Positions 54,870 to 57,792 of a stretch of DNA of 64,000 nucleotides are shown here, one piece after another. Position numbers and translations under genes: made by a program. The notes under the pieces were generated by a model. That model was not told where the DNA came from and made no database searches. It saw nothing but the letters and a program-made list of their open reading frames with translations. The stretch's first letter is position 1, and every line of letters begins with the position of its first letter. Source of the DNA: Pseudothermotoga elfii DSM 9442 = NBRC 107921 (lineage in GTDB: Bacteria > Thermotogota > Thermotogae > Thermotogales > DSM-5069). The stretch lies in NCBI RefSeq assembly GCF_000504085.1, contig NC_022792.1, positions 682,001 through 746,000 on the forward strand, read 5' to 3'.

Positions 54870-56066
54870 TCATAGTCCGAAAACTTGACAGAGTTCTTTC
54901 AACAAATCTTCTGCTTTATCTTCATGTACAAGGCATGATATCTTTATTTCAGAAGTTGTTATCATTTCTGGCTCTATGTTTTTCTTTCTCAAAACTTCAA
55001 AAAATTTTGCTGCAACACCTCGTTGATATTTCATTCCTAAACCTATTATTGATACCTTAGAAAACCCCCCTGTGATCTTAATTTCACAATCAAGATCTCT
55101 CATTGCCTTCTGTACGTCAACCGAGTTACTTTCAACAATTGTGAAAGATAGATTAATGTCTCCTGAGTTACTCACCAACGATATCATATCAACGTTAAAG
55201 CCTTTTTCAGCGAGTTCTCTAAATACGTCGGCGGTTGCTTTAGAATTTTTCAAGCTATAAACGCTGACCTTTACCTGATTTTTCTCTATCGTCGCGCCTG
55301 TAACAACGGGTCGCTCAAGCCATTCCGGAAGTTTTCCCATCACCCACGTTCCCTCCTCATTTGAAAACGAAGAAGCGCAATAAATTGGTACGCTGTATTT
55401 TTTTGCTATCTCAACACTTCGAGAATGTAGAACCCTGGCACCAAGTGCGGAGAATTCCAACATTTCATCGTATGTAATATAAGACAGTTTTTTTGCCTGG
55501 GGAAAGATCCTGGGATCTGTTGTATATATGCCAGCGACGTCGCTGTATATTTCGCAGATTGTTCCAAGTTTTGCGGCAATAGCAACAGCAGAAGTATCTG
55601 ATCCTCCTCTTCCAAGAGTTGTCAGTTCATCGTTTTCGTTTATTCCCTGAAACCCTGTAACAAGTAAAACATCGTTATGAAAAGCCAGCGATCTTAATTT
55701 TCGGTCATCTATATCTTTTATCCTTGCCGAATTAAAATCGCTGGTTGTCAGAATCCGAGCCTGAAACGCATTCAAAGATACAGCTTTCATACCTATTCTG
55801 TCAAGGTATATGGATAGCAAAGCAGCGGATATTTGTTCGCCACAGGATAACAACATATCCAGTTCTCTTGGATTGGGTTTTTCAGACAGCCTTCTTGCAA
55901 GAAAAACCAATTTGTCTGTTGTTTTTCCCATTGCAGAGACAACAACGATTAACTTTTTCCCATTTTTTACTGTTTTCACTATTTTCTCGGTAATTTTTTT
56001 GATTCTTTCTATGCTGGCAAGCGATGAGCCACCATATTTTTGTACAACAAGTTTCAGAAAAATCAC
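54870..56066 (-). CDS. lysC: Aspartate kinase
   Basis: 398 residues. First enzyme of the aspartate family: Asp + ATP to aspartyl-phosphate. VVQKYGGSSLAS (ATP/Asp site), VVVSAMGKTTD, LGRGGSDTSAVAIAA are in the kinase domain (1-245), followed by two ACT domains (NQVKVSVYSLKNSKA..., KVSIIGLGM), which usually bind lysine and/or threonine. Start is uncertain: GTG 56066 overlaps the dapB stop as GTGA but has a poor Shine-Dalgarno; CTG 56057 sits 6 nt after AGAGGTG, like the CTG start of mnmG. Confidence 0.95.
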   Translation of the reverse strand: MIFLKLVVQKYGGSSLASIERIKKITEKIVKTVKNGKKLIVVVSAMGKTTDKLVFLARRLSEKPNPRELDMLLSCGEQISAALLSIYLDRIGMKAVSLNAFQARILTTSDFNSARIKDIDDRKLRSLAFHNDVLLVTGFQGINENDELTTLGRGGSDTSAVAIAAKLGTICEIYSDVAGIYTTDPRIFPQAKKLSYITYDEMLEFSALGARVLHSRSVEIAKKYSVPIYCASSFSNEEGTWVMGKLPEWLERPVVTGATIEKNQVKVSVYSLKNSKATADVFRELAEKGFNVDMISLVSNSGDINLSFTIVESNSVDVQKAMRDLDCEIKITGGFSKVSIIGLGMKYQRGVAAKFFEVLRKKNIEPEMITTSEIKISCLVHEDKAEDLLKELCQVFGL

Positions 56067-56710
56067 CTCTTTTTGGATAAAACATCACGAAATGTGTAGA
56101 ACGAAGCTTTAGTACTGATAGCAAATTCAGCTGCTTTCAACGCACCGAGTGCAAAGATTTTTCTTGACATTGCCCTGTGAGATAATTCGATTACCTCGCC
56201 TTCATTTGCAAATAAAATTTTGTGATCGCCGAATATTCCTCCGGCGCGGATTGAGTGAATGGGGACATTTCCGAGGCTTTCACTCAAAAATAGAGCTGTG
56301 CCGGAAGGAGCGTCTTTCTTTTTCCTATGATGAAACTCAATGATTTCGATATCCCATTCAGAAAACTCCAGTTTGAAACTTTCCAGGATATTCTTTATCA
56401 CGTTTATTCCCACAGAAAAATTACTTGAATATACAACCGGAACCAGAGCAGACAATTCATTGAGCATCGATATGTCTTGTTCTTTCAAATTGGTTGTTCC
56501 AATAACTGCAGGGCATAGAAATTTTTTCGATAACTCCACGGTTTCTTTCAAAGCTTCTGGTGAAGAGAAGTCTAATATGATATCTGGTTTTTCTTGTACT
56601 TCTCTATGTGTTCTGTCAAATTTTGCCACTAATTGGTGGCAGTACTCGCTAAAAACCTCGATAATTTCCTTTCCCATTTTTCCTGAAAATCCAACGAGTC
56701 CATATTTCAT
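56063..56710 (-). CDS. dapB: 4-hydroxy-tetrahydrodipicolinate reductase
   Basis: 215 residues from ATG 56710, which shares one base with the dapA stop (TGATG) and has AAAGGA 8 nt upstream. NAD(P)H-binding GLVGFSGKMGKEI at the N terminus; substrate/catalytic region EFHHRKKKDAPSGTAL. Shorter than E. coli DapB (273 aa), as usual in Thermotogae. Second step of the lysine branch encoded here. Confidence 0.95.
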   Translation of the reverse strand: MKYGLVGFSGKMGKEIIEVFSEYCHQLVAKFDRTHREVQEKPDIILDFSSPEALKETVELSKKFLCPAVIGTTNLKEQDISMLNELSALVPVVYSSNFSVGINVIKNILESFKLEFSEWDIEIIEFHHRKKKDAPSGTALFLSESLGNVPIHSIRAGGIFGDHKILFANEGEVIELSHRAMSRKIFALGALKAAEFAISTKASFYTFRDVLSKKR

Positions 56711-57588
56711 CAGCACCATCCTTTCTTTGCCAGTAGATCTCTTAATGTTTCTATTGTGGATCTCGACGCACCGGTCATAGGTAACCTCAATTCATTTTTT
56801 ATTTTTCCCATCAACCATAGAGCAGCTTTAATAGGTACGGGGTTGGTTTCTATAAATAAAGATTTCATTAATTCAAGGTTTTCAAAGTGTGTTTTTCTTG
56901 CTAATTCGTAATTTTTGTCCAGCATTGCTCCAGTCAATCGAACCATGTTTTCCGGTGATATGTTCGAGAAAACCGATATAACACCAGCTGCTCCAACTGA
57001 CATTAAATGAATAGTTCTATCATCATTTCCTGACCATACATAAAAATCTTTTCTGCTAATGAGCCTTATTATTTCGTCTGCTTGAGAAACGTCTGTATTA
57101 GCTTCTTTTATGCCTATTATGTTTTTACAACGATCAGCCAGATATGCTACTGTTTCAGGGTTTATATTTACTCCGGTTCTCGATGGGACATTATAAATTA
57201 TCAATGGTATATTCAATCTTTCAGATAGGTACTTATAATGCTCAATTAAACCCTTCTGGGTTGGTTTGTTATAATAAGGACTGACAACCAAAACTGCATC
57301 AGCACCGTTTTTGCTTGCCAGATGGGACAGATGCAATGTTTTTTCTGTATCGTTTGTACCTGTTCCGACAATTACCTTAGCCCTGTCAGAACACATCTCC
57401 TTAGTTATGCTTGTGAGTTTCTCCCTTTCCTTATCTGTTAAAGTTGCCCCTTCTCCTGTAGTTCCTGCGACAACTATTGCTTGAATTTTCTCCGCAAGCT
57501 GCCATTTCACTAAATTTCTGTACGCACTATAATCGATTCTTCCGTTTTTGAACGGCGTGACGATCGCTGTACCAACACCTTTAAACAT
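56710..57588 (-). CDS. dapA: 4-hydroxy-tetrahydrodipicolinate synthase
   Basis: 292 residues from ATG 57588, with GGAGGGGGAAG upstream; the longer frame to 57609 enters the Shine-Dalgarno. It condenses pyruvate and aspartate semialdehyde. Schiff-base lysine in GIKEANTD, catalytic Tyr in IIYNVPSRTG, GTTGEGATL at the active site. First structural gene of the lysine operon, immediately downstream of an intrinsic terminator that can act as attenuator. Confidence 0.96.
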   Translation of the reverse strand: MFKGVGTAIVTPFKNGRIDYSAYRNLVKWQLAEKIQAIVVAGTTGEGATLTDKEREKLTSITKEMCSDRAKVIVGTGTNDTEKTLHLSHLASKNGADAVLVVSPYYNKPTQKGLIEHYKYLSERLNIPLIIYNVPSRTGVNINPETVAYLADRCKNIIGIKEANTDVSQADEIIRLISRKDFYVWSGNDDRTIHLMSVGAAGVISVFSNISPENMVRLTGAMLDKNYELARKTHFENLELMKSLFIETNPVPIKAALWLMGKIKNELRLPMTGASRSTIETLRDLLAKKGWC

Positions 57589-57610: not shown

Positions 57611-57641
57611 AAAAAAGCGGGCTACTTCTGGTAGCCCGCTT
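57611..57641 (-). terminator. Intrinsic terminator/attenuator before dapA
   Basis: Minus strand: AGCGGGCTAC (57640-57631), loop CAGAA, GTAGCCCGCT (57625-57616), a perfect 10-bp stem followed by TTTTTT. It lies after the leader peptide and 23 nt before the dapA ATG, so transcripts must escape it for dapA to be expressed. Confidence 0.88.
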
Positions 57642-57660
57642 CTCACACAGTGGTCGTGCT

Positions 57661-57756
57661 CTAAAAAAGCAAACACAACCACACCGCAAAAAGCGGGCAG
57701 TTGTGCTTGGTCTTCTTTATTATGCTGGCATTCACAGAATTCAGAGAATTCATCAT
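57661..57756 (-). CDS. Putative leader peptide of the dapA operon, with Lys-Lys-Thr-Lys
   Basis: A 31-codon frame from ATG 57756 (a second ATG follows at 57753) to TAG at 57661, preceded by GGGGGA with a 7-nt spacing. Codons 12-17 read Ile-Ile-Lys-Lys-Thr-Lys (ATA ATA AAG AAG ACC AAG), placed just before the first leader hairpin; the C terminus is hydrophobic (CPLFAVWLCLLF). The position between promoter and terminator of a lysine-biosynthesis operon is what a ribosome-stalling attenuator requires. A small membrane peptide is an alternative reading. Confidence 0.7.
   Translation of the reverse strand: MMNSLNSVNASIIKKTKHNCPLFAVWLCLLF
57674..57705 (-). promoter_or_regulatory. Leader hairpin holding the antiterminator strand
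   Basis: CACAAC (57705-57700) pairs with GTTGTG (57679-57674) and, inside, CCGC (57696-57693) with GCGG (57687-57684). The same region contains GCCCGCTT (57698-57691), fully complementary to AAGCGGGC (57641-57634), the 5' arm of the terminator. The two pairings exclude each other, giving a two-state switch. It overlaps codons 18-28 of the leader peptide. Confidence 0.65.
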
Positions 57757-57783
57757 TATTATATCCCCCAAGAGTTTTAAGTG

Positions 57784-57792
57784 ATTATATCA
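57784..57792 (-). promoter_or_regulatory. Extended -10 promoter of the dapA leader and operon
   Basis: Minus-strand TGA-TATAAT (57792 to 57784), a consensus extended -10; the -35 region is AT-rich without a good match. Transcription would begin near 57777, giving a 21-nt untranslated region before the leader ATG. Confidence 0.65.

Follow-up and report, generated by a model that had tools for sequence, protein, structure and literature searches.

A likely lysine-specific, ribosome-mediated attenuator in the dapA leader of Pseudothermotoga elfii and its relatives

The leader upstream of dapA in Pseudothermotoga elfii is likely a ribosome-mediated transcription attenuator of the classical thr/trp type, specific for lysine. 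The parts of the element, their conservation and covariation, and the geometry of ribosome stalling are shown here by computation, while the mechanism itself is inferred, with no transcript, ribosome or expression data. The window that was analysed is a stretch of 64,000 nucleotides (G000:C1:682001-746000) from the P. elfii genome (G000), which consists of a single contig of 2,169,860 bp.

All elements of the leader lie on the minus strand. An extended -10 sequence, TGA-TATAAT (57784..57792), predicts a transcription start near 57777 and is followed by a Shine-Dalgarno-like GGGGG (57765..57769) located 8 nt 5′ of the leader ATG. The leader ORF (57661..57756, with ATG at 57756 and TAG at 57663-57661) was taken from an ORF listing, has a frame that is kept open across 22 leaders, and encodes a peptide of 31 codons, MMNSLNSVNASIIKKTKHNCPLFAVWLCLLF. 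Codons 12-17 (57723-57706) read Ile-Ile-Lys-Lys-Thr-Lys, and the last four of these, AAG AAG ACC AAG (Lys-Lys-Thr-Lys, 57706..57717), were assigned as the control codons from the enrichment of Lys at the same place in relatives and from the last Lys being the last permissive codon (see below). Folding places an intrinsic terminator at 57611..57644, with a stem, GCGGGCTAC/GTAGCCCGC, that is kept in 12 aligned leaders and is followed by a U-tract. The gene order 3′ of the leader is dapA-dapB-lysC, comprising dapA (4-hydroxy-tetrahydrodipicolinate synthase, 56710..57588, ATG at 57588; NCBIfam TIGR00674, 328 bits), dapB (4-hydroxy-tetrahydrodipicolinate reductase, 56063..56719; TIGR00036, 180 bits) and lysC (aspartate kinase, 54870..56066; NF005154, 520 bits), all of which passed the NCBIfam equivalog cut-offs. 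The window promoter was not flagged by a simple sigma-70 scan, because there is no -35 match there; in relatives, TTGACA...TATAAT is found upstream of the leader. A preliminary description, made from sequence alone, had named the extended -10, the Shine-Dalgarno, the 31-codon ORF with its run at codons 12-17, the terminator and the dapA-dapB-lysC order, and all of these held at the positions it gave. Its "10-bp GC-rich terminator" held only in part, as the GC-rich core measures 9 bp and is lengthened by five A-U/G-U pairs; the six T residues of the tract were confirmed.

The leader RNA folds with -60.8 kcal/mol, compared to -38.0 kcal/mol for dinucleotide shuffles (z -6.0), and none of 200 shuffles was as stable. 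Region 1 (57698..57709, from folding and covariation), the 5′ arm of the protector hairpin, overlaps the last (third) Lys codon and pairs with region 2c (57670..57681, from folding), so that the 1:2 hairpin (57709-57698 with 57681-57670) spans the Lys codons. Region 2c can pair with either region 1 or region 3a (57651..57661); these two share 2c as a partner, which is why 3a is a near-repeat of region 1. When region 1 is covered, region 2a/2b (GCCCGCTTTTTGCG, 57685..57698) pairs with region 3b/3c (57634..57647) and 2c pairs with 3a, giving a 25-bp antiterminator with one internal loop, whose apical loop contains the 3′ end of the leader ORF. The end of region 3b/3c, GCGGGC, doubles as the 5′ arm of the terminator. 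Regions 2a/2b, 3a and 3b/3c were defined by alternative-fold analysis. The layout of his, thr and trp attenuators that the preliminary description had recognized is upheld, with a 1:2 hairpin, a 2:3 antiterminator and a 3:4 terminator that it had not detailed.

All 12 aligned leaders have 1:2, 2:3 and 3:4 helices that exclude one another, with a U-tract at 3:4. The sequence of the antiterminator varies by lineage while its complementarity is kept, for example as a 14-bp block in G007 and as about 18 bp in G047. In the latter (L143 2890-3095), the most divergent member of the group, these nearly perfect base pairs are also read as leader codons. Across the 1:2 and 3:4 helices of the 12 leaders, 98.2% of the cells are paired and seven pairs have changed on both sides (12 such cells), values that are reached by zero to one of 500 shuffles; pairing drops below 43% when the alignment is shifted by 1-3 columns. 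The last Lys codon itself covaries, reading AAA opposite U in Fervidobacterium-like genomes and AAG opposite C in G006 and G007, and Lys is always kept. The alignment of dapA upstream regions that the preliminary description had proposed thus shows the leader ORF and Lys run to be kept in close relatives, and compensatory changes were found in both helices.

A covariance model (R1) was built from the 12 leaders and used to find further copies. In 20 of the 61 relatives searched, lysine genes have the same anatomy in front of them, with strong matches to R1; these relatives belong to Pseudothermotoga-like genomes, Fervidobacterium-like genomes and one further family (these names and "Thermosipho-like" are inferred lineage labels, which we take to describe the relatives). 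Within family f1, a close dapA was found only in G006 and G007, from two other genera, each with a leader 5′ of the gene (MFEKYLDKGVSATKLNTIIIIKKRNRPPVEWWLRFFA and MAIFLRFVRQFALNSIENKKAKRSHPLVDGWPALSSFCTS, respectively) and each with a dapH leader besides. Of the ten other f1 genomes, nine have a leader before dapH and aminotransferase genes (..KKDKKCNRPV.CGGV..), the lone exception being G004, which is 71% complete. Fervidobacterium-like genomes (f3, g6 and g14) and G047 (f6) contain the operon asd-dapF-dapA-dapB-dapH-lysC-aminotransferase, with the leader (..NKKAKRSCPL.GGQLAFG.. or similar) 5′ of asd. That the element extends through the order and into one more family, and that one relative has a threonine version (see below), goes beyond the preliminary description.

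Several loci lie at the margin of this distribution. P. elfii itself carries a weaker copy 5′ of dapF-dapH with a single Lys codon (..NIKRYCPV..; L182, G000:C1:2060273-2060386), which may be weakened or differently tuned. Seven genomes (G001-G003, G005 and G008-G010) have a dapH leader but only distant DapA paralogues, none close to the DapA of the window, so that their lysine pathway is either incomplete or served by another DapA; a search of contigs for DapA returned mostly distant DapA of other phyla. Weak R1 matches in G032, G070, G045 and G047b (E 1e-4 to 1e-3) were rejected as terminators or leaders lacking a codon run. The one in G045 (L199, G045:C24:21185-21282), located 5′ of an ABC transporter substrate-binding gene, has a short ORF without a codon run and is possibly another attenuator-like terminator.

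In 22 leaders (769 codons), no stop codon occurs in the leader frame, compared to 80 and 57 in the other two frames. Lys accounts for 55 of 88 codons in the control window, defined as the control Lys and the three codons before it, versus 33 of 703 elsewhere, a 13-fold concentration at one place, and the Lys positions switch between AAA and AAG. These counts are not independent, since the leaders are related by descent. For leader pairs, in-frame dN/dS is about 0.17-0.52 among the dapH leaders and gives no information for the Fervidobacterium-like and transporter leaders; purifying selection on the peptide is clear only in the dapH leaders. Translation of the leader is inferred from the presence of its frame, start and Shine-Dalgarno alone, without ribosome data.

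In the proposed mechanism, RNA polymerase would start near 57777 and a ribosome would translate the 31-codon leader. With ample Lys-tRNA, the ribosome would pass the Lys codons onto region 2, no antiterminator would form, and the 3:4 terminator would halt transcription before dapA. With scarce Lys-tRNA, the ribosome would stall at AAG AAG ACC AAG, leaving region 1 covered and region 2 free; region 2 would then pair with region 3 ahead of the synthesis of region 4, letting polymerase continue into dapA-dapB-lysC. The stall upon Lys-tRNA shortage had been suggested in the preliminary description and is supported by the comparative tests and the stall geometry. Leader translation, termination, the lysine response, readthrough, transcript ends and kinetic control remain inferences.

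Stall geometry was calculated in silico with the ribosome edge set at +10, +12 or +14 nt past the start of the A-site codon, and the 2:3 pairing was scored before region 4 appears. At edges of +10 and +12, the furthest codon where stalling still permits the antiterminator is a Lys codon in all 21 correctly read lysine leaders, a count restricted to those with the correct start codon (the starts of the G009 leader and of the G000 dapF leader were misassigned in that calculation). At the same edges, the last permissive codon of the Thr leader before hom-thrC-thrB is Thr. If the edge is set at +14, the boundary falls one codon earlier, often on an Ala or Thr that lies amid the Lys codons. Among the Escherichia coli controls, the antiterminator is lost just past the last Thr codons in thrL and past Trp-Trp-Arg-Thr in trpL; hisL shows no clear pattern under this footprint metric.

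Equilibrium folding of the complete RNA cannot show the switch, because the terminator wins in nearly all leaders at every ribosome position, as it likewise does in E. coli thrL, trpL and hisL; control is therefore inferred to be kinetic. Before the terminator is made, the 2:3 pairing is favoured at equilibrium even with no ribosome or with a ribosome stalled upstream. Termination under these two conditions, and thus the selectivity for Lys over earlier codons, would therefore depend on the 1:2 hairpin forming first; kinetic folding was not simulated.

Two further leaders share the skeleton. A threonine version in G006 (L183, G006:C1:390992-391110), with the leader MCEVFVVAQLNSGTTTTSNCPPAERRLLVVV (..GTTTTSNCPP..), lies 5′ of homoserine dehydrogenase, followed by threonine synthase-like and homoserine kinase-like genes, both named from their sequences. 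No further Thr leader was found upstream of hom in the other relatives. In P. elfii, a leader reading ..MIKHYNRGSPV.. (L181 2932-3103; G000:C1:507485-507602) precedes an amino-acid ABC transporter whose best NCBIfam match, below cut-off, is a lysine/arginine/ornithine substrate-binding protein, with ..EIKHHAKYSPV.. or a similar sequence at this position in G001-G003. The transporter leader might sense Lys/His or other basic residues.

The preliminary description had seen no lysine riboswitch and had named this riboswitch as the usual control in Thermotoga and Firmicutes. The absence held, and the statement on usual control is correct for the sister lineages, which strengthens the attenuator reading. 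RF00168 has no match in the window or in the whole G000 genome; it was found in 26 of the 61 relatives, none of which is among the 20 attenuator genomes, and sister lineages carry it before the same operon. The sole overlap of riboswitch and attenuator among the 61 genomes, in G032, is spurious and results from an R1 match on a terminator. In genomes that carry it, the riboswitch is located about 1.8 kb 5′ of dapA, with asd and dapF filling that space. An unrelated cobalamin riboswitch was noted in G012 (L132 13746-13928). In a DapA tree, 12 of 13 attenuator-associated DapAs group in one clade (SH-aLRT 97), with G047 separate. This clade mixes Pseudothermotoga-like and Fervidobacterium-like sequences and leaves out the riboswitch-bearing f3 genomes (Thermosipho-like), which belong to the same family as Fervidobacterium. 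Transfer of the operon together with its leader fits this pattern and is possible, but unproven, as it rests on one quick gene tree without a species-tree test. A bolder joint reading is that a Thermotogae-specific attenuator family replaced the lysine riboswitch on the same operon, moves with the operon between lineages, and, with its RNA skeleton kept, exchanged its control codons so that Lys specificity gave way to Thr (hom-thrC-thrB) and to basic residues (the amino-acid ABC transporter); we would as soon expect this reading to fail as to hold.

Three other explanations of the leader were considered. It could be a ligand- or protein-binding structured RNA, such as an unknown riboswitch, a diverged lysine riboswitch, a T-box or an L20-leader-like element, with an incidental ORF. 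The strong conserved structure speaks for this, as do sub-threshold matches to the Rfam L20_leader model (27.7 and 26.0 bits, where 58.7 is required). However, RF00168 is absent genome-wide, no T-box was detected at the gathering threshold, nor on the leader up to E 10, and the L20_leader identity fails on both its unmet gathering score and the non-ribosomal genes downstream (dapA). Also against it are a frame that is open in every leader with Lys concentrated at one place, the AAA/AAG swaps, and the replacement of the Lys run by Thr before threonine genes on the same RNA skeleton. We consider this explanation very unlikely. A plain terminator with a chance small ORF and no regulation is all but excluded. 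Intrinsic terminators occur frequently and chance yields small ORFs, of which the ORF list of the window has many, but the element recurs 5′ of lysine genes in 20 genomes and at several places in them, its helices covary and its codons match the pathway, all of which already contradict this explanation.

It is also conceivable, though unlikely, that the leader is multivalent for the aspartate family and responds to Ile and Thr besides Lys; E. coli thrL likewise responds to both Thr and Ile. In the window leader, the Lys run is preceded by Ile-Ile and interrupted by Thr, and G006 has four Ile ahead of Lys-Lys; lysC is also known to feed several pathways. Against this, Ile and Thr are mostly missing at these places in G007, in the Fervidobacterium-like leaders and in the dapH leaders, with Lys as the constant residue, and a ribosome stalled at the upstream Ile codons would be expected to leave region 1 exposed. 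An attenuator specific for lysine remains the preferred reading.

A lysine attenuator in Thermotogae was not found in the openly licensed literature searched, a scope that excludes the broad attenuation survey of Lopatovskaya et al. (2010). Since the search was limited in this way, priority of the lysine specificity, which the preliminary description had supposed to be new, is not certain. Published attenuator specificities include His, Leu, Thr and Trp, plus Ile/Val and Phe, with an origin thought to be gamma-proteobacterial (PMC3766115). The same study places the lysine riboswitch in most Thermotogales, and a list of Thermotogae with lysine riboswitches does not mention Fervidobacterium (PMC5584792). 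Control of lysine genes by RNA is known through the riboswitch, and an attenuator in a thermophile phylum would add a specificity, suggest that translation-coupled attenuation works at high temperature, and give a reason for the lack of the riboswitch in these genera.

No Rfam family matches the leader at threshold, including the Thr, Trp, His and Leu leader families; it is inferred to work like these leaders without being a member by sequence. It shares with E. coli thrL (Rfam Thr_leader) runs of the regulated amino acid, a competing antiterminator and terminator, and loss of the antiterminator just past the control codons, but thrL has Thr/Ile specificity, its Rfam model does not match the window leader, and the latter extends its antiterminator by region 3a, the near-repeat of region 1. 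With E. coli trpL it shares the 1:2, 2:3, 3:4 logic and an antiterminator that is available at the control-codon stall and lost past it; trpL differs in its Trp codons, genes and sequence, and its antiterminator is less favoured with the ribosome far upstream. The Sinorhizobium SEP5 candidate (PMC10117765) likewise has Lys codons in a small ORF upstream of an aspartate-family gene and was proposed as a leader peptide, but contains six Thr and three Lys codons and precedes another gene in another phylum. The lysine riboswitch (L-box, RF00168) serves the same lysine operon and occupies the same place, upstream of asd-dapF-dapA, in sister Thermotogae (PMC5584792), but its aptamer senses free lysine without any need for translation, and it is missing from every attenuator genome. 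The phylogenetic pattern of the attenuator complements that of the riboswitch and, because the two precede the same operon in neighbouring lineages, they offer a natural comparison of sensing free lysine versus charged tRNA-Lys.
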